NCBI RefSeq assembly: GCF_023544465.1
Contig: NZ_JALPVL010000005.1
Coordinates: 372,001-436,000 of the forward strand
From: Paractinoplanes maris
Lineage (GTDB): Bacteria > Actinomycetota > Actinomycetes > Mycobacteriales > Micromonosporaceae
Length of the DNA: 64,000 bases
Direction of reading: 5' to 3'
In this document: positions 43,034-64,000 of the stretch, in pieces
Numbering within the stretch: position 1 is the first letter of the stretch
Layout of the letters: the number at the start of each line of letters is the position of its first letter
The notes under the pieces: generated by a model
Seen by the model: the letters and a program-made list of their open reading frames with translations, nothing else
Databases searched by the model: none
Told to the model about the DNA's origin: nothing
Made by a program: the position numbers and the translations under genes

Positions 43034-44970
43034 CCCCGCCGGTGAGCGGTTCGCGGGCTCTGTGGGAGCCGCCGGGCGACATCCGGGAGACGTCCCGGAT
43101 CGGGCACTATCTGTCCTGGCTGGGCAAGGACTTCGCCGGCTACGCGGATCTGTGGCAGTGGTCGGTCGACGACCTGCCCGGCTTCTGGCAGTCGATCTGG
43201 GACTACTTCGAGGTCATCGCGCACGACCGGCCGACCGCCGTGCTGGCCGACACGTCGATGCCCGGCGCGAAATGGTTCCCCGGCGCCACCCTCAACTACG
43301 CCGAGCACGTGCTGCGCATGCCCGGCCTGGCCGACGACGACCCGGTTGTCCTCGCCTACAGCCAGACCCGCGAACCGGTGACCCTGACCAAGGCGCAGCT
43401 ACGGGAAAAAGTCCGGCTCGTCCGCGCCGGCCTGCGCGCGAAAGGCATCGGCCCCGGCGATCGGGTGGCCGCTTACGCCCCGAACATCCCCGAGACGTAC
43501 GTCCTGATGCTCGCCACCGCCAGCCTCGGCGCCACCTTCTCCTCCTGCGCACCCGAGTTCGGCGTCCGCAGCGTCATCGACCGCTGGCAACAAATCGAAC
43601 CGACCCTGCTCGTCGCGGTCGACGGCTACCGCTACGGCGACAAAGCCATCGACCGCCGCGACGAGGTCACCGCCATCACCGCCGCCCTGCCCTCCCTCCA
43701 GCACGTCGTCACCATCGGTTACCTGGAACCTTCCAGAGACACCTTCGCCGAACTCACCGGCGACGAACCCCTGACCTACACACCGGTGCCGTTCGACCAC
43801 CCGCTCTACGTGCTCTACAGCTCCGGCACCACCGGCCTGCCCAAACCCATCGTCCACGGCCACGGCGGCATCCTGCTCGAACACCTCAAAATGCTCGCCC
43901 TGCACCACGACCTGGGCCCCGGCGACCGGTTCTTCTGGTTCACCACCACCGGCTGGATGATGTGGAACTTCCTGGCCAGCGGCCCCGCCGTCGGCGCCGG
44001 AATCGTCCTGTTCGACGGCAACCCGGCCCACCCCGGCCTGGAAACCCTGTGGAACCTCGTCGACCAGGCCGGCATCACCTACTTCGGCACCTCAGCCCCC
44101 TTCCTCATGGCCTGCCGCAAAGCCGGCCTCACCCCGCACAAGCCGCAGCTGAAGGGCGTCGGCTCGACCGGCTCACCCCTGCCTTCCGAGGGCTTCCACT
44201 GGGTCTACGAGACGATCGGCGACCGCCTGCAGCTGCAGTCCCTGTCGGGCGGCACCGACGTCTGCACCGGCTTCGTCGGCGGGGTACCGCTCCGGCCCAT
44301 CCGCGAGGGTGAGATCGCCTGCCGGGCCCTGGGCGCCAAGGTTGAGGCCTACGACCCCGAGGGCCGCCCGGTCGTCGATCAACTCGGCGAGCTGGTCATC
44401 ACCGCGCCCATGCCGAGCATGCCGGTCGGCTTCTGGAACGATCCAGACGGCAAGCGCTACCGCGAGGCCTACTTCGACGTCTTCCCGGGCGCGTGGCGGC
44501 ACGGCGATTGGATCACCGTGCACGCCGACGGCTCGTGCGTGATCACCGGCCGCTCCGACGCCACGCTGAACCGTGGCGGCGTACGTCTGGGGACCTCCGA
44601 GTTCTACGCCGTGGTCGAGGCGCTGCCCGAGATCGCCGACTCGCTCGTCGTCCATCTGGAGCCCGACACGCTTCTGCTGTTCGTCGTGCCCGCCGGCGAT
44701 CAAGAGCTCGACGACGCGCTGCGCAGCCGGATCCGCCGCGAGCTGCGCGAGGCCCTGTCGCCGCGCCATCTGCCGGACGAGATCCACGCCGTACGAGCGG
44801 TGCCGCGCACCCTGTCGGCCAAAAAACTCGAGGTGCCCGTCAAGCGAATCCTCACCGGCACCCCGGTCGAGGAGGCGGCCGCACTGGGCGCCCTGGCCAA
44901 CCCCGAGTCCCTGCAGGCCTTCGCCACGCTCGACCGGCAACAAGCCAACGGCCACCGCAACCCACCGTGA
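43030..44970 (+). CDS. acetoacetate-CoA ligase (acyl-CoA synthetase)
   Basis: A 646-residue adenylate-forming enzyme with YSSGTTGLPKPIVHGHGG, GSTGSPLP, LSGGTDVC and the C-terminal acetoacetyl-CoA synthetase-type region SAKKLEVPVKRILTG. It turns acetoacetate or a similar 3-oxoacid into its CoA thioester using ATP. The TTG start overlaps the SDR stop and gives the usual N terminus. The last eight codons and the stop are duplicated downstream as a 26-27 bp tandem repeat. Confidence 0.85.
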   Translation: MTPPVSGSRALWEPPGDIRETSRIGHYLSWLGKDFAGYADLWQWSVDDLPGFWQSIWDYFEVIAHDRPTAVLADTSMPGAKWFPGATLNYAEHVLRMPGLADDDPVVLAYSQTREPVTLTKAQLREKVRLVRAGLRAKGIGPGDRVAAYAPNIPETYVLMLATASLGATFSSCAPEFGVRSVIDRWQQIEPTLLVAVDGYRYGDKAIDRRDEVTAITAALPSLQHVVTIGYLEPSRDTFAELTGDEPLTYTPVPFDHPLYVLYSSGTTGLPKPIVHGHGGILLEHLKMLALHHDLGPGDRFFWFTTTGWMMWNFLASGPAVGAGIVLFDGNPAHPGLETLWNLVDQAGITYFGTSAPFLMACRKAGLTPHKPQLKGVGSTGSPLPSEGFHWVYETIGDRLQLQSLSGGTDVCTGFVGGVPLRPIREGEIACRALGAKVEAYDPEGRPVVDQLGELVITAPMPSMPVGFWNDPDGKRYREAYFDVFPGAWRHGDWITVHADGSCVITGRSDATLNRGGVRLGTSEFYAVVEALPEIADSLVVHLEPDTLLLFVVPAGDQELDDALRSRIRRELREALSPRHLPDEIHAVRAVPRTLSAKKLEVPVKRILTGTPVEEAAALGALANPESLQAFATLDRQQANGHRNPP

Positions 44971-45010
44971 GCCAACGGCCGCCGCATCCACCGTGAGCCA
45001 GCAGCGGCCG
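44944..45010 (+). repeat. 27-bp tandem duplication of the ligase gene's 3' end
   Basis: Unit 1 (44944-44970) is the last eight codons plus TGA of the ligase gene. Unit 2 (44971-44996) repeats it with a few changes and one base fewer, again ending in CCACCGTGA. A decayed third unit begins at 44997. Confidence 0.8.
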
Positions 45011-45026
45011 CGGAGCGGAGTGCGGG

Positions 45027-49463: not shown

Positions 49464-49967
49464 ATGTCGTACGGGGGTACGCCTGTCGATCAGGTGAGAA
49501 GGAGACCGACGATCCTGGAGGTCGGCGCGAGTCTGCTGGCGGTCGTCGGCGTGCTGAGCGTGGGCCGGGTGGCATACGGCGTGGTGGTGAACCTGGGCCA
49601 GGATCAGTGGAGCTCCGGCGCCCGCGCGGTGTTCCTGTTCCTCAACTCGATCGTGCTGATCTTCGCGCTGTTTCTCCTGGTGCTCGCCCACCAGGTGCGG
49701 CGGGGCCGGCAGTGGGCCTGGATCGTCAGCATGATCATGCTGCCGTTCACGACGCTGGTCGGCGGCCTGATGCTGCTCCTCACCGCGCTGAGCGGTGCCA
49801 TCCCCTTCGCCGGCATCGCTGTCGTGGCGACGTCGCTGGCCGCCCTGCTGGTGCTGACCCTCCCCCGCGCGGTCCGCGACTTCTTCCTGCGCAACCCACC
49901 CCCGGCGCCGCCCCAGCACCAGCCGTGGGCCGCCGCTCAGGGCCAGCCGTGGGGGCCGGGCCGATAG
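49464..49967 (+). CDS. four-helix membrane protein, unknown function
   Basis: A 167-residue protein with four hydrophobic segments (about 18-40, 53-75, 82-107 and 110-132) and a Pro/Gln-rich cytoplasmic tail (PPPAPPQHQPWAAAQGQPWG). GGGAG lies 8 nt before ATG 49464. It resembles many small actinobacterial membrane proteins with proline-rich ends, but I cannot name it. A 54-bp repeat array begins at or just after its stop. Confidence 0.6.
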   Translation: MSYGGTPVDQVRRRPTILEVGASLLAVVGVLSVGRVAYGVVVNLGQDQWSSGARAVFLFLNSIVLIFALFLLVLAHQVRRGRQWAWIVSMIMLPFTTLVGGLMLLLTALSGAIPFAGIAVVATSLAALLVLTLPRAVRDFFLRNPPPAPPQHQPWAAAQGQPWGPGR

Positions 49968-50214
49968 CGACCGCGTACTCCAGCCGGGCGGGCCGGCAAC
50001 GCCCCGACCTGCTACAACCGCGCACTCAGCCGGGGTGACGCCCGGCCGGAAAGGCGTCGTCCAGCTGCGACCGCGTACTCGAGCCGGGTCGACGCCGCGC
50101 CCGTAACGCCACAACCGGCTACGACCTCGCAGTCCGGCCGGATCGACGCCGGGCCGGCAAAGCCACAGCCGGCTACAACCGGCGTACTCGAGTTGGGTGG
50201 ACGCCGGGTGCTGG
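49962..50214. repeat. 54-bp imperfect tandem repeat array
   Basis: Four full units begin at 49971 (47 bp), 50018 (53), 50071 (54) and 50125 (54), with a fifth partial unit at 50179. Each begins near CCGCGTACTC and ends near GGCTACAA or GGCTACGA. The 3' end of the preceding gene (GGCCGATAGCGA) resembles the end of a unit. A unit of 18 codons leaves minus-strand frames open, but no protein family is visible there. Confidence 0.75.
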
Positions 50215-50343: not shown

Positions 50344-50500
50344 GAGCCGAGCCGAGCCAACCGAGACGAGACGAGCCGCGCCGGGCCGAGCCGAGCCGGG
50401 CCGAGCCGGGCCGAGCCGGGCCGAGCCGGGCCGGGCCGAGCCGGGCCGAGCCGGGCCGGGCCGAGCCGGGCCGGGCCGGGCCGAGCCGGATTCGGGGCAG
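50344..50500. repeat. CCGAG/CCGGG pentanucleotide array
   Basis: About 150 bp is built almost wholly from 5-bp CCGAG and CCGGG units, clearest at 50380-50490, where they alternate as a 10-bp unit. It lies in the 622-bp gene-free stretch 49968-50589. The rest of that stretch (50215-50343 and 50501-50589) shows no gene. Confidence 0.8.
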
Positions 50501-51230: not shown

Positions 51231-51320
51231 GTGAGGCAACGTGAACAGCGCGGAACGGCGCCACGCCCGCCGAGTGGCGCCGTTGCCGGCTCGGCGGGCG
51301 TGGTGGTCGGTGTCCGGCGT

Positions 51321-51487
51321 CGAGCGCTGGAGAAGAGCGTCGAGCACGAGAGAAAGGCGTCGAGCACGAGAGGAGTGGATCGACCCCGAGAGAAGGGCGT
51401 CGAGCGCGAAACAAGAGCGTCGAGCGCGAAACAGAAGCGTCGAGCGCGAGGAAAGAGCGTCGAGCGGAAAAGCGTCAGGCGTCCAGC
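51321..51487 (-). repeat. 20-bp tandem repeat array at the amidohydrolase 3' end
   Basis: Seven units of exactly 20 bp start every 20 nt from 51321 to 51441, with an eighth partial. On the minus strand each contains GCTCGACGC followed by a pyrimidine-rich half. The last coding bases and stop of the amidohydrolase gene (GCTGGACGCCTGACGC, minus strand) look like the founding copy. Confidence 0.8.
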
Positions 51488-52467
51488 TTCAGCAGGCGGG
51501 CTGCTGTCTCGCCTCGGATGGAGTCGCGGACCTTTTCGTCGAGGCGGGCGGTGGCGATCTGGTCCAGGGGGTCGTAGTGGCCCATGTCGAACGGGTAGTC
51601 GGTGCCGATCACCACGTGGTCGGCGCCCATCTGCTGCACCAGGAACTCCAGGTGGGGGGCGTCGAAGACCAGGCAGTCCACGTAGATCTGCTTCAGGTAC
51701 TCCGACGGCGGGCGGCTGATGTGGTGGCGGCCTTCGGGGCGCAGCTCGTACGCGTGGTCCATGCGCGACGAATAGAACGGCAGGTAACCGCCGCCGTGCA
51801 CGGCCACCAGCTTGAGGCCGGGGAATTCCTCGAGCACGCCACCGTGAATGATCTTGGTCAGGGCGACCGTCGTGTCGAGCGGGTTGCCGATCACGTTGGT
51901 CAGGTAGTACTTGCGCAGGCGCTCGCCGCCGGTGAAACCGTTGGGGTGCAGCATCACGACGACGTCGAGCTCCTCCGCCTTGGCGAAGAACGGGCGGAAC
52001 CGCCGGTCGTCGAGGTCGAGCCCCATGACGTTCGTGTTGATCTCGACGCCGCGGAAGTCGTATTCGCGCACACACCGTTCCAGTTCGGCGACCGCGGCCG
52101 ACACGTCCTGCATCGGCACCGTCGCCAGGCCCACGAAGCGGTCCGGATGACCGGCCACGATCTTGGACAGGTTGTCGTTCTGCATCTGCGCCAGCGAAAG
52201 ACCGAGCGCCGGGTCGGTCCAGTAGAAGTAGCCGGCCGGCGCCACCGAGATGGCCTGCACGTCGATGCCCATCCGGTCGAGGTCGGCGATCCGGCGCTCG
52301 GGATCGGTCGCCTGCGGCATGATCTCGCGGACGTGCTCGACCTGATACGCGTTGGTCTCGTCCCCGCCGTAGTAGGTGAACGGGTCCATCTCGGGCGACA
52401 TCAGCCCGTTCACCAGCGGCAGCGTGTCGGGCAGGATGACGTGGCCGTGTATGTCGACGGTTCGCAC
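51475..52467 (-). CDS. amidohydrolase, ACMSD/decarboxylase-like
   Basis: A 330-residue TIM-barrel metal enzyme beginning VRTVDIHGHVILP (H-x-H), with VAVHGGGYLPFY and VIGTDYPFDMGHYDP (metal Asp). It resembles aminocarboxymuconate-semialdehyde-decarboxylase-type amidohydrolases (amidohydrolase-2). GTG 52467 has AAGG 6 nt upstream. It is the last gene of the ABC importer operon, 11 nt after the HisD-like gene, so it should act on the imported compound or its oxidation product. Confidence 0.8.
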   Translation of the reverse strand: MRTVDIHGHVILPDTLPLVNGLMSPEMDPFTYYGGDETNAYQVEHVREIMPQATDPERRIADLDRMGIDVQAISVAPAGYFYWTDPALGLSLAQMQNDNLSKIVAGHPDRFVGLATVPMQDVSAAVAELERCVREYDFRGVEINTNVMGLDLDDRRFRPFFAKAEELDVVVMLHPNGFTGGERLRKYYLTNVIGNPLDTTVALTKIIHGGVLEEFPGLKLVAVHGGGYLPFYSSRMDHAYELRPEGRHHISRPPSEYLKQIYVDCLVFDAPHLEFLVQQMGADHVVIGTDYPFDMGHYDPLDQIATARLDEKVRDSIRGETAARLLKLDA

Positions 52468-52478
52468 AAGAAGCCTTT

Positions 52479-53735
52479 CTAGGAGACGGGGGCCCACGGC
52501 AGTGGGGCATCGGCGTACTTCGCGGCCCGGACGTCGCCGGAACGGGCGTGGCCTTCGAACAGCTCGACCCGCGCCGCCCGCCCGCACAACTCGCCCAGTT
52601 CGGCTGAGGCGGACGGTGAGGTGACCTCCTGATAGGTCACCGTGCGCAGGTACTTCCCGACCCACAGCCCACCGGTGTAGCGGGCCGCGCCCCGGGTCGG
52701 CAGCACGTGGTTCGTGCCGATCACCTTGTCCCCGTACGAGACACAGGTGCCCTCACCGAGGAAGAGCGCGCCGTAGTGCTTCATCCGGTCGAGGGCTTCC
52801 CGGGGCTCGCGCGTCAGGATCTGCACGTGCTCACTGGCGAAGGTGTCGGCCAGCGCGTACGCCTCGTCGAGCGTGGCCACCACGTGGACCTCACCGTGGT
52901 CGCGCCACGCGGGCCCGGCCATGTCGTTGGTCGGCATGCCGGGCAGGATCGCCTCGATGTGCTCGACGACCCGTTGGGCCAGCGCGGACGAGGTGGTGAT
53001 GAGCACGGCCGGCGAGTCGGGCCCGTGCTCGGCCTGGCTGAGCAGGTCGACCGCGACCACGAACGGGTCGGCCTCGTCGTCGGCCACGATCAGGATCTCG
53101 GTCGGGCCGGCGAACAGGTCGATGCCGACCGTACCGAAGAGCTGTCGCTTCGCTTCGGCCACGTACGCGTTCCCCGGCCCCGCGATGAGGTCGACCCGCC
53201 CGATGGACGCGGTGCCCAGAGCCATCGCCGCCACCGCCTGCACCCCGCCGAGCAGGAGGATCTCGTCGGCGCCGGCCAGGTGCAGCGCGGCCACCGTGGC
53301 CGGCGGGATCTCCCCGCGCAGCGGCGGGGTGCAGGCGGTGACCCGCTCCACGCCCGCGACCTTGGCCGTCACCACCGTCATGTGCGCCGATGCCGTCAGC
53401 GGATAACGGCCACCCGGCACGTACGCGCCGGAGGCCACGATCGGCAGGTGCTTGTGCCCGAGGAAGACACCCGACTGGGTCTCGATCTCGACGTCCCGCA
53501 TGCTGTCGCGCTGCGCCTGGGCGAACTGCCGCACGTTGGCCTGCACGGTCTTGATGTCGTCGATGACCGTCGACGGCACCGCGGCCACGATCTTGTCGAT
53601 CTCGGCCGCCGACAGCTGGAACGACTCGGGCGACCAGTTGTCGAACTTCTGCGAGTAGCGGCGGACCGCGTCGTCGCCGTTCGCGCGGATGTCCTCGATG
53701 ACGTCGCGGACGACCGCCTCGACCGAAGAAGTCAT
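52479..53735 (-). CDS. histidinol-dehydrogenase-family enzyme, catabolic (HpsN-like candidate)
   Basis: A 418-residue HisD-fold NAD-dependent dehydrogenase with the zinc and catalytic sites intact: SQAEHGPDS, SEHVQI, YGDKVIGTNHVLPT and EGHARS. No other his gene is near; it sits in an ABC importer operon instead. HisD homologues outside histidine synthesis include HpsN, which oxidises (R)-2,3-dihydroxypropane-1-sulfonate to sulfolactate. That role would fit the NitT/TauT-type importer, but it is inference. The gene overlaps the ATPase stop by 1 nt. Confidence 0.8.
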   Translation of the reverse strand: MTSSVEAVVRDVIEDIRANGDDAVRRYSQKFDNWSPESFQLSAAEIDKIVAAVPSTVIDDIKTVQANVRQFAQAQRDSMRDVEIETQSGVFLGHKHLPIVASGAYVPGGRYPLTASAHMTVVTAKVAGVERVTACTPPLRGEIPPATVAALHLAGADEILLLGGVQAVAAMALGTASIGRVDLIAGPGNAYVAEAKRQLFGTVGIDLFAGPTEILIVADDEADPFVVAVDLLSQAEHGPDSPAVLITTSSALAQRVVEHIEAILPGMPTNDMAGPAWRDHGEVHVVATLDEAYALADTFASEHVQILTREPREALDRMKHYGALFLGEGTCVSYGDKVIGTNHVLPTRGAARYTGGLWVGKYLRTVTYQEVTSPSASAELGELCGRAARVELFEGHARSGDVRAAKYADAPLPWAPVS

Positions 53736-54499
53736 CAGGCGACCGCCGAAGCCGTACGGGACATGGCTTTCATGGTTTCGAGGCGCCCCAGCACCTCGGC
53801 CTGCAGCGTGGCCACGGTCGGGTCGGTCTGCCGGCGCGGCCGGGGCAGGTCGATGGTGATGTCCTCGTAGATCCGGCCGCCCGGTTGCAGGACGATGATG
53901 CGGTCGGACAGCTCGACCGCCTCGACCACGTCGTGGGTCACGAAGACGACGGTCTTCTTGGACTGGGCCCAGATGTCCTGCAACTGCGCCCGCAGGCCAC
54001 GGGCGGTGATCGCGTCGAGGTGGCTGAACGGCTCGTCCATCAGCAGCAGGTCGGGCTCGACGGCGAACGCGCGGGCGATGCCGACCCGCTGCTGCATGCC
54101 GCCGGAGAGCTGACCGGGGAAGAAGTCGGCGTTCTTGGCCAGGCCGACCATGTCGAGGTACTTCTTGGCCCGGGACACCGTGGCCTCACTGCGGTCGTCC
54201 TGCACGTACATCATGTTCTTCATGACGCTGCGCCACGGCAGCAGGCGCGGGTCCTGGAAGACGTAGCCCATCCGGGCCGGGCCGCCGGCGTCGCTGGTCA
54301 GGCTGATGTCGCCCGAGGTGTGCTCCTCGACGCCCGAGATGATGTTGAGCAGGGTGCTCTTGCCGCAGCCGGACGGGCCGACGATCGAGACAAACGTGCC
54401 GCCGCGGACGTCGAAGGAGATGTCGTCGAGCACCCGGCTGGCCTTCGGGGTGCCGACATTGAAGGTCTTGGCGAGGTTCTTGATGGTCAGGACAGCCAC
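53735..54499 (-). CDS. NitT/TauT-type ABC transporter ATPase
   Basis: A 254-residue ATPase of the nitrate/sulfonate/taurine class: Walker A GPSGCGKST, Q-loop YVFQDPRLLPW, signature LSGGMQQRV, Walker B LLLMDEPFSHLD and H-loop VTHD. It powers the two permeases encoded upstream, ending the transport part of the operon. Confidence 0.9.
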   Translation of the reverse strand: MAVLTIKNLAKTFNVGTPKASRVLDDISFDVRGGTFVSIVGPSGCGKSTLLNIISGVEEHTSGDISLTSDAGGPARMGYVFQDPRLLPWRSVMKNMMYVQDDRSEATVSRAKKYLDMVGLAKNADFFPGQLSGGMQQRVGIARAFAVEPDLLLMDEPFSHLDAITARGLRAQLQDIWAQSKKTVVFVTHDVVEAVELSDRIIVLQPGGRIYEDITIDLPRPRRQTDPTVATLQAEVLGRLETMKAMSRTASAVA

Positions 54500-54508
54500 A
54501 ATGTCTCC

Positions 54509-55336
54509 TTAAGCGGAAGCGTCGCGCCAGCGGAAGGCTCGTCGGATCGCGCGGTCGAGCACGAAGCGGTCGAGCAGGACGATGAAACCGACGAAGAGCA
54601 CGACCCAGGCGGCGAACCCGCCGAACCGGTTGGCGTCGTACCACCAGCGGGCCCGGTAGCCGACACCGCCGCCGCCGCCGAACCACTCGGCCAGCAGCAC
54701 GCCGTTCCAGCCGATGATGATGGCGAACCGGATGCCGGCCGCGACATAGCCGGTGACCGCGGGCAGGACCAGATCCTTGATCCGGCGCGACAGCGGCACC
54801 TTGTACGTCGTCGACATGTCCCGCAGATCGCGCGACACCCCCCGGACGCCCTGGGCGACGTTGACGATGACGAACGGCACCGAGGTCAGGAACGTCGTGA
54901 TGATCGGGCTGAGGTCGCCGAACCCGAACCACATCACGGTCAGGAACGACCAGATGATGGCCGGGATCGACAGGGCGACCAGCACCGGGCTCTCGAAGAA
55001 GGCCCGGCCGAGCTGGGACAGGCCCATGATGACGCCGATCGCGATGCCGACGACGGCGGCCAGGGCCACGCCGACGCCGAAGCGGTAGAGCGTCAGGCCG
55101 AAGTTGCCGAAGACCTCGCCGCGCGAGAACTCGTCGGCCAGCCGCTGCACCACCTCGACCGGCCCGGGGACCCGGGCGAACAGCGCCGACATCAGCACCC
55201 AGAAGACGAAGAACGACAGCAGTGCGGCGACGCGGGCGGCGCGGTCCGAGGTGAGCCGCTTCTGCCAGGCCGGTGTGGCCTTGTCCTTCTCGGTGGTCGA
55301 GCGGCGGGCTTTGACGGGAGCCATCGTGGTGCTCAC
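54509..55336 (-). CDS. NitT/TauT-type ABC permease (second subunit)
   Basis: A 275-residue membrane protein with six helices and a binding-protein-dependent transport region (PAIIWSFLTVMWFGFGDLSPII, QGVRGVSRDLRDMSTTYKVPLSRRIKDLVLPA, the EAA-like loop). The GTG start overlaps the first permease's stop (GTGA). Having two different permeases is less common in this class than a homodimer. Confidence 0.85.
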   Translation of the reverse strand: MSTTMAPVKARRSTTEKDKATPAWQKRLTSDRAARVAALLSFFVFWVLMSALFARVPGPVEVVQRLADEFSRGEVFGNFGLTLYRFGVGVALAAVVGIAIGVIMGLSQLGRAFFESPVLVALSIPAIIWSFLTVMWFGFGDLSPIITTFLTSVPFVIVNVAQGVRGVSRDLRDMSTTYKVPLSRRIKDLVLPAVTGYVAAGIRFAIIIGWNGVLLAEWFGGGGGVGYRARWWYDANRFGGFAAWVVLFVGFIVLLDRFVLDRAIRRAFRWRDASA

Positions 55337-56181
55337 AGCGCGGAGCTCCTCTCCTGCGGGCGCCACGCGAGCAGCCGGGCCTCGCTCTTGGCCAGGACCA
55401 GGCGCTCGATGATCAGCATGAACACGATGAACAAGAACATCCAGGCGAGCACGGCGGCGATGTCGTACAGCTGATATTCCGTACGGATCTGGAAGCCGAC
55501 GCCGTTGCGGCCGCCGAACACCTCGGTGAGCGCCTCGACCTTCCACGCCACCGCGAAGCACATCCGGATCGCGGCGAAGATGAACGGCACGATGGTCGGC
55601 AGCAGCACCTCCCGGCGGATCTGCTGGGACGACCGCCCGAAGGCCTCGCTCATCGTGATCAGCGACTTGTCGACCCCGCGGATGCCCTCGGCCACGTTGA
55701 GCGCGATGTACGGCGCCGAGACCAGCGCCACGGCGAGGATCGGGCCCAGGTTGGACAGGCCGAAGACGATCAGCGACATGACCGCGTAGACGATCGCGGG
55801 GATCGTGCCGGCGATCGTGACGCCGTCGTGGAAGAACGCGCGCCAGTAGTTGTAGCGGCCCATCAGGTAGCCGATCGGGGCGCCGACCGCGGCCGCGACC
55901 GCGAAACCGGCGAACGTCTTGAGCACGCTGGCCGAGAAGTCGGTGACGAAGTTGCCGCTCTCGACGATCTCGACGCCGGCCTGGAAGACCTCCAGCGGCC
56001 GGGGCAGCAGGCGCGAGCCGAACCACCAGGAGCCGTACTCCCACAGGGCGAACATCGCGACCCAGCCCAGCAGCACCAGTCCGGTGAGCCGCCATCGCCG
56101 CCGCCGGGCGGTGCGCTTGGCGCCGGCCTCGGGGTCCGCGGGTGGTGCGGCCGGAGCCGCACCCACCAGCTGATCCGTCAT
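55333..56181 (-). CDS. NitT/TauT-type ABC permease (first subunit)
   Basis: A 282-residue membrane protein with six helices. The cytoplasmic coupling loop reads EGIRGVDKSLITMSEAFGRSSQQIRREVLLPTIVPFI. Its paralogue follows directly, so the two probably pair as a heterodimer. The ATG at 56181 lies 9 nt behind the binding-protein gene's stop. Confidence 0.85.
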   Translation of the reverse strand: MTDQLVGAAPAAPPADPEAGAKRTARRRRWRLTGLVLLGWVAMFALWEYGSWWFGSRLLPRPLEVFQAGVEIVESGNFVTDFSASVLKTFAGFAVAAAVGAPIGYLMGRYNYWRAFFHDGVTIAGTIPAIVYAVMSLIVFGLSNLGPILAVALVSAPYIALNVAEGIRGVDKSLITMSEAFGRSSQQIRREVLLPTIVPFIFAAIRMCFAVAWKVEALTEVFGGRNGVGFQIRTEYQLYDIAAVLAWMFLFIVFMLIIERLVLAKSEARLLAWRPQERSSAL

Positions 56182-56190
56182 CGTGTCTCC

Positions 56191-57267
56191 TTAGGACTTC
56201 GGGAGGATCGTGAAGTCGGGGTCGGGCACGTCCTCGTCGACGTAGCCGGCTTCCTTCATGAGGTTGAACAGCTTGGTCTCGCTGTCCACCCAGGCCTGGT
56301 CGAGGTAGGTCGACTCGACGAACCAGTCGTACTTGTTGGCCAGCCAGTCACGGATGAACGCCTTGTCCTTGTCCGACTCGGCGGCGAAGTCCTCCGGGTA
56401 GGCCTCGATGATCTTGTCGCGGTTCTTGGCCCACTCCTGGACGCCGCGGTCCCACATCTTGATCAGGAACGCCGCCTCCTCCGGGTTCTTCTCGACCCAG
56501 GCCTTGCGGGCGACGAAGACGTTGTTCTGCGGGTGGGTCAGCTCGGTCTTGTTGTCGGAGAACTGCTCGGCGTAGATCTGCGAGACCGACTTCGAGTCGT
56601 ACAGGGGCTTGATCGCGCCGCTGGACAGCTGCGGGATGGAGAAGTCGGGCAGCAGCAGACCGGCGTCGGCGTCGCCTCGCTCGATCAGGCCGGCCGCGTT
56701 CTGCGGGTCGGTCACGACCAGCTCGTAGTCGCCGCCGCCGGCCCGCAGGTCGAGGTTGCACCACTTCTTGGCGAAGACGCCCCACATGATGGTGATCGAG
56801 ACCGCGCTGTGCGTGACGATCTTCTTGCCCTTGAGCTCGCAGATGTCCTTGGCCGTGCTGTTCTTGCCGACGGCCAGGATGCTGCGGTCGGAGTTGAACT
56901 TGCCGAAGATCGTGGTCTTCTCGCCGGTCTGCTTCTCGAGCTCGGGCACCTCGTAGGAGGCCGCGGAGACGACGTCGGCGTGCCCACCGGCATAGACCCC
57001 GAACTCGTCCCAGGACGACGAGGTCAGGACCTGGATCTTGGCCGCCTCCTCCATCTCCTGCTTGATGCCCTGCGACTCCATCCACTTCCAGACGGGGTCG
57101 GGGGCCATGACCATGTTCACGACGCCGTTGGCGTCCTTGGCCTCGGCGTTGGCGCCCGACTGGGCGGCCGGACGGGCACCGCATCCGGCCGTGGCGACCA
57201 GGGCGAGAGCGGTGGCGGAGGCTATGACTCGGCGGCGGTTCGGACGGACGATGCGTGATGCATTCAT
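56191..57267 (-). CDS. NitT/TauT-type ABC substrate-binding lipoprotein
   Basis: A 358-residue protein with an Arg-rich N terminus, hydrophobic signal and lipobox VATAGC (Cys near 29). A two-lobed binding domain follows (SSWDEFGVYAGGHADVVSAASYEVPELEKQTG, ADAGLLLPDFSIPQL, VFVARKAWVEKNPEEAAFLIKMW). It is the first gene of the operon and catches the substrate outside the membrane. The promoter region shared with the LacI gene holds two palindromic operator-like sites. Confidence 0.85.
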   Translation of the reverse strand: MNASRIVRPNRRRVIASATALALVATAGCGARPAAQSGANAEAKDANGVVNMVMAPDPVWKWMESQGIKQEMEEAAKIQVLTSSSWDEFGVYAGGHADVVSAASYEVPELEKQTGEKTTIFGKFNSDRSILAVGKNSTAKDICELKGKKIVTHSAVSITIMWGVFAKKWCNLDLRAGGGDYELVVTDPQNAAGLIERGDADAGLLLPDFSIPQLSSGAIKPLYDSKSVSQIYAEQFSDNKTELTHPQNNVFVARKAWVEKNPEEAAFLIKMWDRGVQEWAKNRDKIIEAYPEDFAAESDKDKAFIRDWLANKYDWFVESTYLDQAWVDSETKLFNLMKEAGYVDEDVPDPDFTILPKS

Positions 57268-57404
57268 GGGAGGTACCTCTCACGGGGGTGCGGCACTTCG
57301 TTGGGTGCGACCAGAGGCGAGGGGTTGCTGCGACTCATGTCGAGGATGTTTCGGGGTTGTGACGCCCGACACTGCCGTGGCAACCTGTGCAAGTCAAGCA
57401 TTTC

Positions 57405-57419
57405 TGCAAAATCTATGCA
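57405..57419. promoter_or_regulatory. secondary LacI-type operator (imperfect)
   Basis: TGCAAAATCTATGCA matches the perfect site at 57461 in 12 of 15 positions. A minus-strand TTGACT (57392-57397) just beyond it could be the -35 box of the transporter operon. Confidence 0.5.
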
Positions 57420-57460
57420 CGTGGATGTGCTTGTCAGCTGCGCTAACATGGCCGTCGTTG

Positions 57461-57475
57461 TGCATAATTTATGCA
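57461..57475. promoter_or_regulatory. primary LacI-type operator (perfect palindrome)
   Basis: TGCATAATTTATGCA is a perfect 15-bp palindrome 19 nt before the LacI start and 56 bp, centre to centre, from the second site. The spacing would allow looping or cooperative binding. Confidence 0.65.
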
Positions 57476-57494
57476 TTCGAGAACGGGGTACACC

Positions 57495-58535
57495 ATGGAC
57501 GGTCACCGGACGGAACGCCGGCGTGGGGCGACGAGCTCGACGGTCGCTGAGGCGGCCGGGGTGGCGCAGTCGACGGTGTCGCGGGCCCTGCGGGGTGACC
57601 CCCGGGTCCGCGACGACACCCGGCGGCTCATCGAGGAGACGGCCGAGCGGCTCGGCTACCGCCCCTCGTGGGCCGGCCTGACGCCGGCGGCGGCGCTTCC
57701 GGCGCGTACGAGATCGATCGGGGTCGTGGCCTCGGACCTGACCAATCCGTTCTTCCCGTCGCTGCTCAACCCGGTGCATGACGAGCTGCAGCTGATGGGC
57801 TACCGGTTCGTGCTGTTCGCCGAGCGCACCGACCTGCCCACCGGACAGGAGGCGTTGCTCAGCCTGCTCAACTCGTCGATCGACGGGGTGCTGATCACCA
57901 CGGCCACGCTCGACTCGCACCTGGGCGAGGCGCTGACCGCCCGGGAGCTGCCGATCGTGCTGCTCAACCGCTACGTCGACGGCATGGACGTCGACCGGGT
58001 GACGGCCGACAACCACCACGGCGGGCGGACGGCCGCGCGGCACCTGCTCGATCTGGGCCACCGCTCGATCGGTGTCATCCGCGGCCCGGCCAACACGTCG
58101 ACCAGCCGCGACCGGCACGCCGGCGTCCTCGAGGGCCTGGCCGGCTCCGGGGTGGTGCTCGAGGTCCGCGAGGGGCCGTACACCCACCAGAGCGGATATC
58201 AGAACGCCCGGGAGCTGTTGCGGCTGCCCGCTCCCCCGACCGCGCTGCTCTGCGGCAACGACATCATCGCGTTCGGCGCCCTCGACGCGGCCAAGTCGCT
58301 CGGCCTGGACGTGCCGGCCGACATCTCGGTGCTGGGCTTCGACGACGTGCCGATGGCCTCCTGGGAGGTCTTCCAGCTGACCACGGTCCACCAGCCGCTG
58401 AGCGAGATGGCCCGCACCGCCGCCCGCCTGCTGGTGGAGCGCATCGAGCACGACGGCGACATCGGCGCCGGCCGGGAGCGGCTCTTCGCCACCAGCCTGG
58501 TGCAGCGATCGACCACCCAACATGTCGGCTCCTAG
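57495..58535 (+). CDS. LacI-family regulator of the ABC/HisD operon
   Basis: A 346-residue LacI-type regulator: N-terminal HTH (STVAEAAGVAQSTVSRALRGDPRVRDDTR) and hinge, then a periplasmic-binding-like effector domain (IGVVASDLTNPFFPSLL, DGVLITTATLDSHL, LGFDDVPMASW). ATG 57495 gives the usual N terminus; an upstream ATG at 57471 lies inside the palindrome. It is divergent from the importer operon and probably represses both directions, with the transported compound as inducer. Confidence 0.9.
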   Translation: MDGHRTERRRGATSSTVAEAAGVAQSTVSRALRGDPRVRDDTRRLIEETAERLGYRPSWAGLTPAAALPARTRSIGVVASDLTNPFFPSLLNPVHDELQLMGYRFVLFAERTDLPTGQEALLSLLNSSIDGVLITTATLDSHLGEALTARELPIVLLNRYVDGMDVDRVTADNHHGGRTAARHLLDLGHRSIGVIRGPANTSTSRDRHAGVLEGLAGSGVVLEVREGPYTHQSGYQNARELLRLPAPPTALLCGNDIIAFGALDAAKSLGLDVPADISVLGFDDVPMASWEVFQLTTVHQPLSEMARTAARLLVERIEHDGDIGAGRERLFATSLVQRSTTQHVGS

Positions 58536-58542
58536 GTGTGAC

Positions 58543-58564
58543 GGCTGTGTTACAAGCCACAGCC
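58543..58564 (+). terminator. hairpin after the LacI gene
   Basis: GGCTGTG (58543-58549) pairs with CACAGCC (58558-58564) across an 8-nt loop, 8 nt after the LacI stop. Confidence 0.5.
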
Positions 58565-58670
58565 TCATGGCGCCACCCAGGCCGCCGCGATGTGTGGCCA
58601 ACCATTTCTGGACCGACAGTGTGTGGCCCGGCACATGGGTCCGGATCCGGGGCGGCGGCACCGTAAGGCC

Positions 58671-59900
58671 ATGACGACCATCGCTGTAGCCCCTCTGCCG
58701 CTCTGGGCGCGGGAAGCCGCCGACGCCGTCGACCTGCACGCCCTGGCCGATCGGGTGGTCGAGGCCGACCTCGCGGCCGCGTTCGACACGTTGCGCGACA
58801 ACGACGAGTTCGTGACCCGGCTGCGGGCCAGCGTGGTCGAGAACCTCCGCGCGCTGCGCCAGGTGCTGACCGGGCGGACGCCGCTGGCTGAGGTGTGTCT
58901 CACCGAGCCGTTCGCGCTGGCGGCGCTGCAGGCCCGCCTCCGCCTGCCGCAGACGGCGCTGCAACGCTCGTACCGGGTGGGTTTCCTGACCATGTGGCAG
59001 GAGTGGAGCGACCAGCTCGTGGCGCGGGCCGGCCTAGACGACGTGCCCCGCCGCGAGAGCCTGGAGGCGTTGCAGGCGCTGACCGAGCTCGTGCTGGCCT
59101 ACCAGCACCACGTGGGCTCGCAGGTCGCGGACACTTTCGCCCGGACCGACGACCAGCTCAGCCGCTCCCGCGAGCACGTCCGGGCCGGCCTGGTCCAGCA
59201 TCTGCTGCGCGACGACTCGACGCCGCTGCCGCCGTCCGACCTGGTGCTGCTCGACTACCCGCTGGACGCCGCCCATCTCGCCGTGCTGCTGCCCGACCTG
59301 CCCGAGAGCGCGGCCCGGCAGGTCCTGGACACCCTGCGCGAGAAGTGCCACGTGCGGGACACCCTCGTGCACCCGATCGACCTGACCAGCACGGTCGTCT
59401 GGCTGGCCCAGCCGCGGCAGGCGGGCTGGACGGCGACCCGGATCGCCGCACTCACCGACTGTCTGCGCGGCCACGCTTTGGAGGCGTCGGTGAGCGAGCC
59501 GCACGTCGGTGTCCAGGGAGTCCGCGACGGCTGGCGGCAGGTCCGCGACGTGCAGCGCGTCCGCGAGGCCTGGGGCCCGGGCGTGCTGACCTATCCCGAC
59601 GTGAGCCTGGAGATCCTGCTGATGGCCGATCCGGTGCGGGCCCGCGCGTTCGTCCGCACCGAGCTCGGCGAGCTGGGCGCCGACGACGAGAACGCGGCTC
59701 GCCTGCGCGAGACGGTCGAGGCCTCCCACCGGTACGGCAGTCACGTGACCACCGCGGCCCACCTTCACCTGCACGAGCACACCGTGCGCAACCGCCTGCA
59801 GAAGGCCGCCGAGCTGCTCGGCCGTCCCCTCACCGAACGCCGCACCGAGCTGCAGGTGGCGCTGCGCCTGTCCCGGCTGCTGATCTCCGTCGCCGAGTGA
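58671..59900 (+). CDS. PucR/CdaR-family regulator
   Basis: A 409-residue protein. The C-terminal 60 residues are the PucR helix-turn-helix (VTTAAHLHLHEHTVRNRLQKAAELLG), preceded by a GGDEF-like CdaR region (about 190-300) and an N-terminal helical domain. Such regulators activate purine or sugar-acid catabolism. ATG 58671 was chosen because the upstream in-frame ATGs have no ribosome site. Two copies of TGTGTGGCC, at 58591 and 58620, are candidate binding sites. It overlaps the MFS gene by 4 nt. Confidence 0.85.
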   Translation: MTTIAVAPLPLWAREAADAVDLHALADRVVEADLAAAFDTLRDNDEFVTRLRASVVENLRALRQVLTGRTPLAEVCLTEPFALAALQARLRLPQTALQRSYRVGFLTMWQEWSDQLVARAGLDDVPRRESLEALQALTELVLAYQHHVGSQVADTFARTDDQLSRSREHVRAGLVQHLLRDDSTPLPPSDLVLLDYPLDAAHLAVLLPDLPESAARQVLDTLREKCHVRDTLVHPIDLTSTVVWLAQPRQAGWTATRIAALTDCLRGHALEASVSEPHVGVQGVRDGWRQVRDVQRVREAWGPGVLTYPDVSLEILLMADPVRARAFVRTELGELGADDENAARLRETVEASHRYGSHVTTAAHLHLHEHTVRNRLQKAAELLGRPLTERRTELQVALRLSRLLISVAE

Positions 59901-61024
59901 AGCTCGTCCTGGCCTGCCTGCTCGGCGGCTCGGCGGGCTGGGCCATGACCGCTCCCGGGGCCGGGGCGGCGACCATGGCCGCCGGCTACGGCGCCGGACT
60001 GCTCTGGGTCGGCCTGCTCACGTCGGCGTTCGCCGCCCCGTACGCCGTGCTGCAGTTCCCCAGCGGCGTCGTCGTCGACCGCTTCGGGGTGCGAACCACC
60101 GCCGTCGCCGGGTTGTCCCTGGTGGTCGCGGCGCACCTGATCGCGCTGGCCGCTCCCCTGCCCGGACTGGCGATGACGGCCCGGGTGCTGTCCGGCACGG
60201 GTTTCGCCGTGTGCTTCGTCTGCGGTGCCGAGCTGGCCCGGGCCAGTGGCCGCGGCCCGCGGGGCATGGGCATCTTCGGCGGGGTCTCGCTGGCCGCGTC
60301 CGGGGTGGCCGTGCTGGTGGTGCCGTTCGCGGCGCTGGCTCTGCACTGGCGGGCGCCGTGGGTGACCACCCTGGCCGTGACGGTTCCGGCGCTGATTCTC
60401 GCGCTCCGGGCCGAGAGTCCCGCTTCCCGGCGTACGTCGTCCCGCGGTGCCTCCGTGCTCGACGCGCAGCTGTTCCGGCTGGCCGCCGTGCACGCCGTGA
60501 CGCTGGGCCTCGGCCTGGTGCTGTCGTCGTGGGCGACCACCCTGCTCGTGGCCGTGTGGTCGTTCAGCCCCGCCGTGGCCGCCGTCGTCGGGTCGGGGGT
60601 GCTCGGCCTGTCGGTGGTCAGCCGCCCGCTCGGTGGCCAGCTCGCCGAGCGGTGGCCCGGCCGCACCCGTACGGTCTGGTCGGTCGCGCTGGTGGCGTGC
60701 GCGGCAGCCACGGCGGCTCTGTCCTGGCGGAGCACACCGATCGTCGCCGTGCTGGCGGTGCTGACCCTGGGCATCTTCAGCGGCCTGCCCTTCGCCAGCG
60801 TGGTCGGCGCCGGCCAGGCCCGTCTCCCCGAGCGCCCGGCGGCGGCCGTCGGCCTGATGAACACGGCCGCCTTCGGCCTGGTGGTGGCCGCGACCCCGAT
60901 CGTCGGCTGGGCCGCCGACCACGGCTACGCCTCGTGGACCCTGGTCGCCGTCGCCGCCCTGTGGCTGCTGCCGCTGGCCGCCCTCCCGCGCGTCAGCACC
61001 CGGCCGGCCCTCGTCCCCGGTTAG
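59897..61024 (+). CDS. MFS transporter
   Basis: A 375-residue transporter with about twelve hydrophobic helices and an MFS loop motif (PSGVVVDRFGVRTTAV) between helices 2 and 3. The second half opens at LFRLAAVHAVTLGLGLVL. The GTG start overlaps the PucR stop (GTGA), so the regulator and transporter are co-expressed. The family includes nitrate/nitrite- and drug-type members. The substrate is not evident. Confidence 0.85.
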   Translation: MKLVLACLLGGSAGWAMTAPGAGAATMAAGYGAGLLWVGLLTSAFAAPYAVLQFPSGVVVDRFGVRTTAVAGLSLVVAAHLIALAAPLPGLAMTARVLSGTGFAVCFVCGAELARASGRGPRGMGIFGGVSLAASGVAVLVVPFAALALHWRAPWVTTLAVTVPALILALRAESPASRRTSSRGASVLDAQLFRLAAVHAVTLGLGLVLSSWATTLLVAVWSFSPAVAAVVGSGVLGLSVVSRPLGGQLAERWPGRTRTVWSVALVACAAATAALSWRSTPIVAVLAVLTLGIFSGLPFASVVGAGQARLPERPAAAVGLMNTAAFGLVVAATPIVGWAADHGYASWTLVAVAALWLLPLAALPRVSTRPALVPG

Positions 61025-61033: not shown

Positions 61034-61702
61034 GTGATCCGGGCCGTGATCGTTGACGTCGATGACACCCTGTGCCTGACCGAGGCCGCCTCCTTCGACC
61101 TGGAGAACGAGGTGCTCGCCCGGATGGGCCGGCCGCCGATGTCGCGGGCGGTGCACCGGTCGACGTGGGGCGAGGTCCTGCTGGACGCCATGCCGCGGCG
61201 GTCGCCGGGTCTCGACCTGGCCCGCTTCGCGGAGCTGTTCCCGTCGGTCCACCAGCAATACCTGGCCGACGGCCGCCTCGACGTGATCCCGCCGGAGAAC
61301 CTGGAAGCGCTCGACGAGTTCGTCCGGGCCGGTCGCACCGTGCTGCTGCTGACCTCCCGGGCCGAGGTGGAGGTGGAGCACATGCTGGCCGCCGACCACG
61401 TGCTGGCCGGTCGGGTCAGCGGCGCCTACCACCAGGGCAACACCCGATTCCGCAAGCCGGACCCGCGCGCCTTCGACGAGCTGCTGGCCGACACCGGCCT
61501 CGCGCCGGAGGACTGCGTCTACGTGGGCGACTCACCGGGCGACGCGGTGGCGGCGGGGGGTGCGGGGCTGCGGTTCATCGCCTGCCTGCAGAGCGGGGTG
61601 CGCCGGCTCGACGACTTCGCCCCGCGCTACGTCGACGCCGCCATCGACACCTTCCCCGAGGTGGTCGCCGCGGTGAAGCAGCTCGACCACCCTGCCGGCT
61701 GA
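61034..61702 (+). CDS. HAD-superfamily hydrolase
   Basis: A 222-residue phosphatase-like protein with HAD motif I VDVDDTLCLTE, motif II LLLTSR, motif III Lys in RFRKPDPRAF and motif IV VYVGDSPGDAVAA. It should be a Mg2+-dependent phosphatase with a C1 helical cap. Its last seven codons and stop form the first copy of a 36-bp tandem array. Confidence 0.85.
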   Translation: MIRAVIVDVDDTLCLTEAASFDLENEVLARMGRPPMSRAVHRSTWGEVLLDAMPRRSPGLDLARFAELFPSVHQQYLADGRLDVIPPENLEALDEFVRAGRTVLLLTSRAEVEVEHMLAADHVLAGRVSGAYHQGNTRFRKPDPRAFDELLADTGLAPEDCVYVGDSPGDAVAAGGAGLRFIACLQSGVRRLDDFAPRYVDAAIDTFPEVVAAVKQLDHPAG

Positions 61703-62015
61703 GCCGGCCCCCACCAGCCCGACCACCCTGCCGGTCGAACCGGCACCCAGCAGCCCGACCACCCTGCCCGCCGAACCAGCACCCCGCAGCCTCAAGCACT
61801 CCGCCCGCCGAACCAGCACCCCGCAGCCTCAAGCACTCCGCCCGCCGAACAGCACCCAGCACCCAGCAGCCTCACGTACTCCGCCCGCTGAGCCTGCGTC
61901 CGGCAGGACGACTACCTCGCACCGCTGAGCTGGCACACAGCAGCCCGACCACCCCGCCCGCCGAGCCTGCGCCCAGCAACGTGACCATTCTACGGGCTGA
62001 GCCGGCGTCCGCCGC
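61679..62015 (+). repeat. 36-37 bp tandem repeat array starting inside the HAD gene's 3' end
   Basis: Nine units start at 61679, 61715, 61751, 61787, 61824, 61866, 61904, 61941 and 61977. Each begins CAG or CAA, with a core like CCCGACCACCCTGCC. The first contains the stop codon of the HAD gene. It fills most of the gene-free stretch 61703-62188. I see no gene in the remainder. Confidence 0.85.
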
Positions 62016-62176
62016 CGGGCCGAAACGCCGCGGCCGCGCTCGTTCCCTCGGCATGTCGGCCGAACTGCTGCGCAGGGCGCTTGCCACCGCTACTTCCCCC
62101 GCGGCGGCGTCCGCAGGCTGTCGACCCGCACGGGTGATCGCTGCCCGAGACGACCTCGGACGGCGGCGGGCGACCT

Positions 62177-62182
62177 TAGCGT
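62177..62182 (+). promoter_or_regulatory. putative leaderless -10 box (TAGCGT)
   Basis: TAGCGT lies 6 nt before ATG 62189. Confidence 0.4.
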
Positions 62183-62188
62183 CCTTTC

Positions 62189-62566
62189 ATGATCAACCCC
62201 GGAACGGCCCCGATCGAGGACGCCCGGCCGGAACTCGCCCAAGCCAACCTGGAGGCCTTTCTGGACGCGGCGCGCCGGCGCGCCGCGGAGCTGGACGAGG
62301 TTCCGATCCGGCAGCGCGTCGCCTACCTCGACGGGGAGCCGGTGCGTGACCCGTCGGCCGACCGGGACGGCCGGTTCGGCTGGGACCTGCGGATGTCCGA
62401 CGGTCGTACGGTCCGGCTGCTCATGCCCGGGGTGGAGCTGGCCCGGCTGCGCGACGACATCACGGCCGAAGCACCGTGCCTGTATGTCAACGGCACGGCC
62501 TGGTGGTGGGACGGCGCGGTGGATTCGGTGGCCGGCGAGGGGCTGGTGCTACGCGGCGGTTCGTGA
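62189..62566 (+). CDS. small soluble protein, unknown function
   Basis: A 125-residue protein with a helical first half (ARPELAQANLEAFLDAARRRAAELDEV) and a beta-rich second half (RFGWDLRMSDGRTVRLLMPGVELARLRDD, CLYVNGTAWWWDGAVDSV). I recognise the type from other actinobacterial genomes only as a hypothetical protein. Its last seven codons and stop are the first copy of a 60-bp tandem repeat. Confidence 0.6.
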   Translation: MINPGTAPIEDARPELAQANLEAFLDAARRRAAELDEVPIRQRVAYLDGEPVRDPSADRDGRFGWDLRMSDGRTVRLLMPGVELARLRDDITAEAPCLYVNGTAWWWDGAVDSVAGEGLVLRGGS

Positions 62567-62820
62567 CGGTGCAAGGCAGCGGCATCAGGTTGCCCGCACT
62601 GACTGGTGCTACGCGACCGTTCGTGACAGTCCGGCGCAGCGGCATCAGGTTGCCCGCACTGGCTGGTGCTACGCGACCGTTCGTGACAGTCCGGCGCAGC
62701 GGCATCAGGTCGCCCGCACTGACTGGTGCTACGCGACCGTTCGGCACAGCGGCATTCGGTTGCCAGCGAGGACTGGTGCTACTTGGTCGTTCGTCACGGT
62801 CCGGGGCAGCGGCAGCGGAG
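62543..62820. repeat. 60-bp tandem repeat array bridging two converging genes
   Basis: Units start at 62543, 62603, 62663 and 62723 and, degraded, at 62773. Each opens CTGGTGCTACGC and the first three carry TTCGTGA. The first unit contains the last codons and stop of the plus-strand gene. Units 2 and 3 are nearly identical, while unit 4 has lost 10 bp. The far end runs into the 3' end of the minus-strand XRE gene. Confidence 0.9.
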
Positions 62821-63568
62821 CAGCGGGTCGAGCTGGTGGGCGCGTTCGTGCCGCAGGAGGTGGGCCCGTTCGTCGAGAAGTCCCAGCTGCTCGCGGGTGA
62901 GGCGATGGGCGTACCAGATGAGGGCCGCGGCCTCGAGGACGTCCGGGTGGACCGGCCGGTCGAGGGTGATCAGGTCGATTGCCGGTCAACGCGCTCAGGT
63001 CGCCGCCCGGGATGTCGATGACGGCGGCGAACCCGGTCAGCAGCTCCGGCGTCAGGGCTTTCCGGCCGTGCCCGATCGCGCCGATCGTCGACGCCGAGAG
63101 CATGGGGCCGCGTCCGAGGCCGAACAGGAAACGGGCCGCATCGGACCAGCTGAGACCGCGGTTGTGCAGCAGCCGGAGAAGTAGAGCGCCGGGGCCGTCC
63201 GGATACTGCTGATGAGACGGTGCCGGCCGGGGCGGACCGAGCGGGCGGCGCTGCTCCGGCAAGGACTTCGCGAGCTCGTGCAGCTCTGGGACGGCGCCCG
63301 GCAGATGAGTCATGGACCAGGCCAGCACGCCGACAGAGCTTCCGGGGTGCGTCGGGACGAGGTCGCCGGGCACGGCCTGGCCGGCGATCACGAAGAGGTC
63401 ACTGGCGTGCAGCCCCAGCACCGGGGCCAACTCGCGCAACATATCCGGGTCGGGCTCCGCACCGTCGAGCACCGCCTGGATACGGCTCTCTGCAACGGTT
63501 GTCCTTCGAGCAAGCGTGCCGGCATCAGCCCCACGTAGCTCGGCCAACCGTCCTAACTGCCCCTTCAC
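62794..63568 (-). pseudogene. XRE-family regulator with a 1-nt frameshift
   Basis: From GTG 63568 the frame encodes an XRE-like HTH (LAELRGADAGTLARRTTVAESRIQAVLDG) and a second HTH-like region (DAARFLFGLGRGPMLSASTIGAIGHG). At about 62980 one extra base breaks the frame after DLSALTG. Removing it restores IDLITLDRPVHPDVLEAAAL then IWYAHRLTREQLGLLDERAH and a stop at 62794, which is the expected family C terminus. As given, the frame continues with Arg/Pro-rich nonsense into the repeat array and stops at 62729. It is a real mutation or an assembly error. Confidence 0.65.
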
Positions 63569-63574
63569 GAACCC

Positions 63575-63580
63575 ACACTA
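63575..63580 (-). promoter_or_regulatory. putative leaderless -10 box (TAGTGT)
   Basis: TAGTGT on the minus strand lies 6 nt before GTG 63568. Confidence 0.4.
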
Positions 63581-63686
63581 AGGCGTTCTTGGAGGTGGGA
63601 TCGAACTCCGGTGAGGCCGCAGCCCGACTCCACTTCGAAGACACGACTCCGAAGTGACAGGGCCAAAAAGTGTCGTGGGGAGGCGC

Positions 63687-63692
63687 TAGCTT
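63687..63692 (+). promoter_or_regulatory. putative leaderless -10 box (TAGCTT)
   Basis: TAGCTT lies 7 nt before ATG 63700. Confidence 0.4.
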
Positions 63693-63699
63693 CACCGGC

Positions 63700-64000
63700 A
63701 TGAAGCTGCTGCTGACCGATTCCGGTATCACGAACGCGAGCATCCACGACGCGCTGGTCGATCTGCTGGGCAAGCCGATCGCCGAGTCCACCGCCCTGTT
63801 CGTCCCGACCGCGCTCCACGCGCAGCCGCGCGGCGCATTTCAGGCTTTTCGCGTGATCAGCGGGCAGGAGGATCGGGCGCCCATGGTTCAGCTGGGCTGG
63901 CAGTCGGTGGGGGTTCTCGAGCTCACCGCGCTGCGCAGCATCGGCGAGGATCTGTGGGGGCCGCTGGTGCGCGAGGCCGATGTGCTTCTGGTCGAGGGGG
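63700..64000 (+). CDS. peptidase S51/dipeptidase E-like protein (3' end outside window)
   Basis: The first 100 residues of a class-I-glutamine-amidotransferase-fold protein: MKLLLTDSGITNASIHDALVDLLGKP, FVPTAL, MVQLGWQSVGVLELTALRS and ADVLLVEGG at the cut edge. There the family continues to the nucleophile region. This pattern fits peptidase S51 (dipeptidase E, cyanophycinase). The catalytic Ser and His lie beyond the window. It is divergent from the XRE regulator, its possible controller. Confidence 0.75.
   Translation, partial: MKLLLTDSGITNASIHDALVDLLGKPIAESTALFVPTALHAQPRGAFQAFRVISGQEDRAPMVQLGWQSVGVLELTALRSIGEDLWGPLVREADVLLVEG

Follow-up and report, generated by a model that had tools for sequence, protein, structure and literature searches.

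A 60-bp tandem array apparently seeded by a gene's 3' end in Paractinoplanes maris, and the stop-codon bias of non-coding arrays sampled in Actinoplanes-type genomes

A tandem array of five copies with a period of 60 bases joins two converging genes in the stretch of Paractinoplanes maris DNA analysed here (the window: 64,000 nucleotides, positions 372,001 to 436,000 of contig NZ_JALPVL010000005.1, assembly GCF_023544465.1). One of the two is an uncharacterised plus-strand gene of 125 amino acids (62189-62566, hereafter the plus gene); the other is a frameshifted minus-strand gene of XRE/HTH_31 type (62729-63568 as a raw open reading frame, ORF). Our preferred explanation, to which we give a probability of about four in five, is that the array is a minisatellite born locally of slippage and tolerated since a duplication that spans the stop codon leaves the gene intact. 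The evidence for this comes from the anatomy of the array, its origin in the end of the plus gene, the lack of a coding or RNA-folding signal, the finding of no match in the relatives searched, and the way in which other sampled non-coding arrays meet stop codons.

Results

The array occupies 62543-62814 and is made up of three full 60-base units (unit 1, 62543-62602; unit 2, 62603-62662; unit 3, 62663-62722), a fourth of 50 bases (unit 4, 62723-62772) and a decayed fifth (unit 5, 62773-62814), all given here on the plus strand. Tandem Repeats Finder (TRF) called 62543-62743 with a period of 60, 3.3 copies, 92% matches and a score of 339, followed by a copy spaced at 50 bases (62685-62782); 100 dinucleotide shuffles of 62000-63600 scored no higher than 60. 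Head-to-tail units of tens of bases, repeated beyond chance, are as expected of a minisatellite. The units are GC-rich and imperfect. Units 2 and 3 differ at only two positions (58/60 identical), as the initial annotation had stated, and it is to this pair alone that its description of a near-perfect 60-bp array applies: the array and its period are real, but unit 1 matches unit 2 at 52/60 positions, unit 4 matches units 2 and 3 at 42/50 with a 10-base gap, and unit 5 matches them at 41/60. The same annotation was right that the two genes converge and that each full plus-strand unit repeats the stop, which lies at 62564-62566 in unit 1 (preceded by LVLRGGS) and recurs in units 2 and 3 (preceded by LVLRDRS); unit 4 has no plus-frame stop. 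A CRISPR array was considered and rejected because the units abut and there are no spacers.

The unit can be traced to the end of the plus gene. A segment comprising the last 17 codons of that gene, its stop and 18 nucleotides further on (62512-62584) aligns with 62742-62814 at a score of 64, the maximum in 500 mononucleotide shuffles being 32. The unit is therefore made of the end of the plus gene's coding sequence with its stop and the bases that follow, and on this alignment that 3' end appears to have seeded the array. At its far end the array runs into the facing XRE gene, unit 5 overlapping the C-terminal codons (RCRCPGP and the stop). In the alignment, the plus gene's TGA (units 1-3) and that of the XRE gene (unit 5) fall on one and the same trinucleotide, read on opposite strands (TGA versus TCA).

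The plus gene has a coding score of +0.374 per codon and occurs in 19 of the 67 genus genomes compared (P. maris included; one genome per species), its homologues showing 52-84% protein identity, with the best in the relative G026; the protein has no Pfam, NCBIfam, PHROGs or PADLOC match. Across the 67 genomes no relative's match passes query base 362, which is 8 bases into unit 1, and the unit was not found in the 66 genomes other than that of P. maris. No second locus was found in the P. maris genome either, where the next match was 33 nt long (E 0.0096), and only two of 300 family genomes gave a match to the array, namely P. maris itself and G202, whose 31-base match (E 9e-5) we take as chance. 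The recent local amplification proposed in the initial annotation is supported by the identity of units 2 and 3 together with the finding of no such array in the 18 other genus genomes that hold the plus gene.

We surveyed tandem arrays with a period of 15 or more and a score of 80 or more in three genomes, covering 800 kb of P. maris, 400 kb of G016 and 400 kb of G026 (the last from a single contig); a fourth Actinoplanes-type genome, G022, was chosen after the pattern had been seen, and G047 belongs to another family. Genes were called by a codon-usage script and not curated (the script missed the XRE gene in the window), and arrays lying in called genes over at least 95% of their length were excluded (69/144 in the first three genomes, 22/49 in G022 and 18/32 in G047). 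Among the 75 non-genic arrays of the first three genomes, 22 spanned only a stop, 1 only a start and 52 neither; by genome, the stop-only and start-only counts were 14 and 1 in P. maris, 6 and 0 in G026, and 2 and 0 in G016. The start-only count was 1 at the main and loosest settings and 0 at two stricter ones. G022 had 27 non-genic arrays (stop only 10, start only 1, neither 16), so that the four Actinoplanes-type genomes together hold 32 stop-only and 2 start-only non-coding arrays. For G047, a stop was spanned by 1 of 14 non-genic arrays and a start by none.

Converging gaps had the highest array density in all four Actinoplanes-type genomes, clearly so in three. Densities per kb in converging, diverging and co-directional gaps were, respectively, 1.02, 0.29 and 0.38 in P. 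maris, 1.07, 0.07 and 0.16 in G026, 0.35, 0.10 and 0.32 in G016, 1.39, 0.20 and 0.50 in G022, and 0.27, 0.33 and 0.26 in G047; arrays at the edges of stretches have no gap type (4 in P. maris, 6 in G016, 2 in G047), and five P. maris arrays classed as divergent lie in a single stretch (L087:4768-6557) in which we suspect missed genes. The stop bias is not only about converging genes, since 10 of the 14 stop-spanning arrays in P. maris lie in co-directional gaps; the sole start-spanning array there lies in a diverging gap. The layout of the 60-bp array recurs at another locus in G026, where an array of period 57 (L134:10786-10951) covers the stops of both genes of a converging pair.

Given its position between two converging stops, the array might be a bidirectional terminator or structured 3' untranslated region, copied in a way that strengthens termination, and the high density of arrays in converging gaps of all four Actinoplanes-type genomes is consistent with such a role. 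At this locus, however, the array RNA is on neither strand more stably folded than shuffles (z +0.75 and +0.47), single units give z values of -0.99 to +0.75 against shuffles, and no terminator-like or sigma-70-like site was found in 61600-63800; the array thus shows neither a G+C-rich hairpin with a T run nor a fold better than chance. A known RNA family is likewise unsupported, Rfam giving no match in 61600-63700. Folding was also compared for a class of arrays (period at least 20, 45-320 nt, from P. maris, G022 and G026, plus two arrays of the window) and for controls drawn at random from the array-free gaps of 80-250 nt (one quarter of them). Some members of the class do fold well: z fell below -2 for 7 of the 25 arrays that span a stop and for 13 of the 45 remaining non-genic ones, versus 6 of 39 array-free diverging gaps, but the class does not rise above array-free co-directional (22/58) or converging (3/10) gaps. 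As the arrays exceed diverging gaps only, a class-wide role for RNA structure is unsupported, and we regard the terminator explanation as improbable.

The initial annotation had further reasoned that a unit of 20 codons stays open on the minus strand, so that amplification could lengthen the XRE reading frame. If this were correct, the units would extend the C-terminus of the XRE protein and copy number would alter a regulator. Several features favor the idea. The period is divisible by 3, and of the minus-strand frames one is open from end to end of the array and another, having met two stops in unit 5, has none in units 1-4. There is also a minus-strand ORF of 86 amino acids at 62487-62747, and the raw XRE ORF reads through unit 5 with no stop until the 10-base deletion in unit 4. 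Openness does not extend to the third minus-strand frame, which has stops in units 1-4, and the period carries little weight; while it is divisible by 3 in 68 of the 69 genic arrays, this is also true of 38 of the 75 non-genic ones. The 86-amino-acid ORF, the longest listed on the minus strand inside the array, is not continuous with the XRE ORF, and both differences between units 2 and 3 change its residues (V/A and D/N). All six frames of the array score negatively (-0.24 to -0.52 per codon, versus +0.374 for the plus gene) and therefore none looks coding; no frame of the array coincides with a coding signal.

The XRE protein has a weak HTH_31 match (E 6.3e-5; 23.7 bits, under the Pfam cut-off of 27) and two PHROGs matches to regulators (a repressor at E 1.6e-5, the second match at E 0.0096), with no PADLOC match. 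Judged against the homologues L026, L030 and L032, the gene carries a frameshift near 62978 on the minus strand, reflecting either a pseudogene or a sequencing error. Past the shift the raw ORF scores -0.891 per codon and the frame that matches the relatives +0.308; the C-terminal piece in the latter frame matches L026 at 49% over 53 amino acids (E 1e-13 in a search of four loci), and its ending RCRCPGP corresponds to RCGCPGP there. By eye, no such unit is present in the 400 bases beyond the XRE homologue of L026. The relative-like frame stops within unit 5 at a TGA (62794-62796) and meets a TAG further on in that copy; the raw ORF comes to its stop in unit 4 (62729-62731) because that unit is 10 bases short. 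Lengthening of the XRE frame is, then, unsupported as the sequence stands. Going by the positions of these stops, more copies of units 1-3 would fall beyond both of them; were unit 5 itself duplicated, the raw ORF would grow longer, in the frame that scores poorly past the shift. The plus protein is unaffected by copy number because its stop sits in unit 1. Both proteins look to have been left unchanged by the array as it stands, and we consider a coding role very unlikely.

Other arrays were found in the window. A sister array of 36-bp units (61677-61978, plus strand, 8.1 copies) begins in the last 26 nt of a HAD-hydrolase ORF (61034-61702) and occupies the gap before the plus gene, where the distance between matched flanks is 444 bases, against 6 in G026; its minus-strand fold has a z of -2.7. 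Further off, a 26/27-bp array (44943-45011) crosses the stop of the plus-strand gene 43042-44970, and a 20-bp array (51317-51466) ends 9 bases from the stop of the minus-strand gene 51475-52467. Two arrays (49989-50208, 54 bp; 50344-50489, 5/15/25 bp) lie between converging genes ending at 49967 and 50682, with matched flanks 1234 bases apart here and 29 in G026. This gap comparison with G026 succeeded for three window arrays in two gaps only; in 40 sampled P. maris stretches, no array had both flanks matched in the G026 stretches compared. A block of almost 10 kb (51237-61002) is also present here, between flanking stretches that are about 40 bases apart in G026.

Discussion

We favor a scenario of tandem duplication, probably through replication slippage, although unequal recombination could have had the same effect. 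The segment concerned, of about 60-75 bases, would have run from the final codons of the plus gene through its stop into the bases immediately beyond, which overlap the end of the XRE gene opposite. The most recent re-amplification or homogenisation would have involved the inner copies, with the outer ones left to decay. A duplication that runs from within a gene end past the stop would leave the first copy, and hence the protein, intact, and between converging genes no promoter is expected that such an event could harm. Duplication at a start, by contrast, would put the promoter and ribosome site at risk, so that selection would act as a filter on the duplications that arise. The array may persist because the first gene copy stays intact and the converging gap is not expected to hold a promoter, and it is probably neutral.

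Several observations weigh against this scenario or weaken it. Our genome searches scored only the best candidates in each genome (8 in the genus search and 2 in the family search), and a diverged array elsewhere could be missed as a result. The surroundings of the plus gene were searched in 11 relatives and showed no XRE homologue next to it, and therefore the junction as it was before the array is not seen. The case for a recent change in copy number comes from the identity between units rather than from a comparison of strains, and recent change is to that extent a suggestion of the sequence. As for the survey, the stop bias is thin in G016, where 2 arrays span a stop and 0 a start; the fraction of non-genic periods divisible by 3 exceeds a third, and some of these arrays may lie in genes missed by the caller. 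The bias could instead reflect a function at 3' ends or a mutational hotspot at gene tails.

A bolder view is that Actinoplanes-type genomes possess an active process that amplifies gene 3' ends together with their stops, perhaps tied to converging transcription or replication conflict. We hold this only tentatively and think it rather unlikely. If it were true, intergenic arrays would originate at the tails of genes, and where converging stops overlap, copying would give each gene a stop of its own, here the TGA of unit 1 for the plus gene and its opposite-strand counterpart in unit 5 for the XRE gene.

An error in the assembly, affecting either the copy number or the frameshift, seems to us no more probable than a coding role. 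The genome is in 31 contigs, and tandem repeats are reported as a cause of assembly errors (PMC6868369), but the array is only about 270 bases long with most of its units distinguishable by their differences, and neither collapse nor duplication during assembly can yield decayed outer copies. Least likely of all is the insertion of a dispersed mobile element resembling the mycobacterial interspersed repetitive units (MIRUs), for although 60 bp is within the 40-100 bp range reported for MIRUs (PMC2734929), no second locus was found in the genome, the unit derives from the end of the neighbouring gene and the array is not at a start codon.

Taken alone, the array that we attribute to local slippage is an ordinary minisatellite of a known kind, and the 3'-end bias is mildly interesting. 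Our sample suggests a rule whereby non-coding arrays in the genus meet stops far more often than starts and are densest between converging genes, which bears on where bacterial minisatellites arise or are tolerated. In the titles and abstract openings listed by searches of open-licence papers we recognised no account of tandem arrays in Actinoplanes or Micromonosporaceae, nor of such a bias. Arrays of this sort could serve as strain-typing markers for Actinoplanes.

Several known systems bear comparison with the array. Many prokaryote satellites proved to be coding when surveyed (PMC6749651). In the archaeal Borg elements, a period divisible by 3 characterises arrays within ORFs and is absent from most intergenic arrays; Borg units are described as perfect and A-rich (PMC9879509), unlike the imperfect, GC-rich units of the bacterial chromosome described here. 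MIRUs are similar in being short actinobacterial tandem units that meet gene ends, but they are described as dispersed, apparently mobile, and inserting at start codons (PMC12548453, PMC2734929). Our unit is found at one locus and is built from its neighbour's tail, and rather than being placed at a start codon with downstream coupling, it lies between two stops. The rnc-fpg1 repeats of M. tuberculosis (ETR-F/VNTR3239) offer a further likeness, in that a gap between conserved flanking genes of an actinobacterium has been enlarged by direct repeats in one lineage, from 1 to 54 bases in other species to approximately 280-360 (PMC2734929). That array extends from 40 bp past a stop up to a start codon, and its longer forms accompany higher expression of the downstream gene (PMC2734929), whereas the array described here includes a gene's end and its stop and lies between converging genes.
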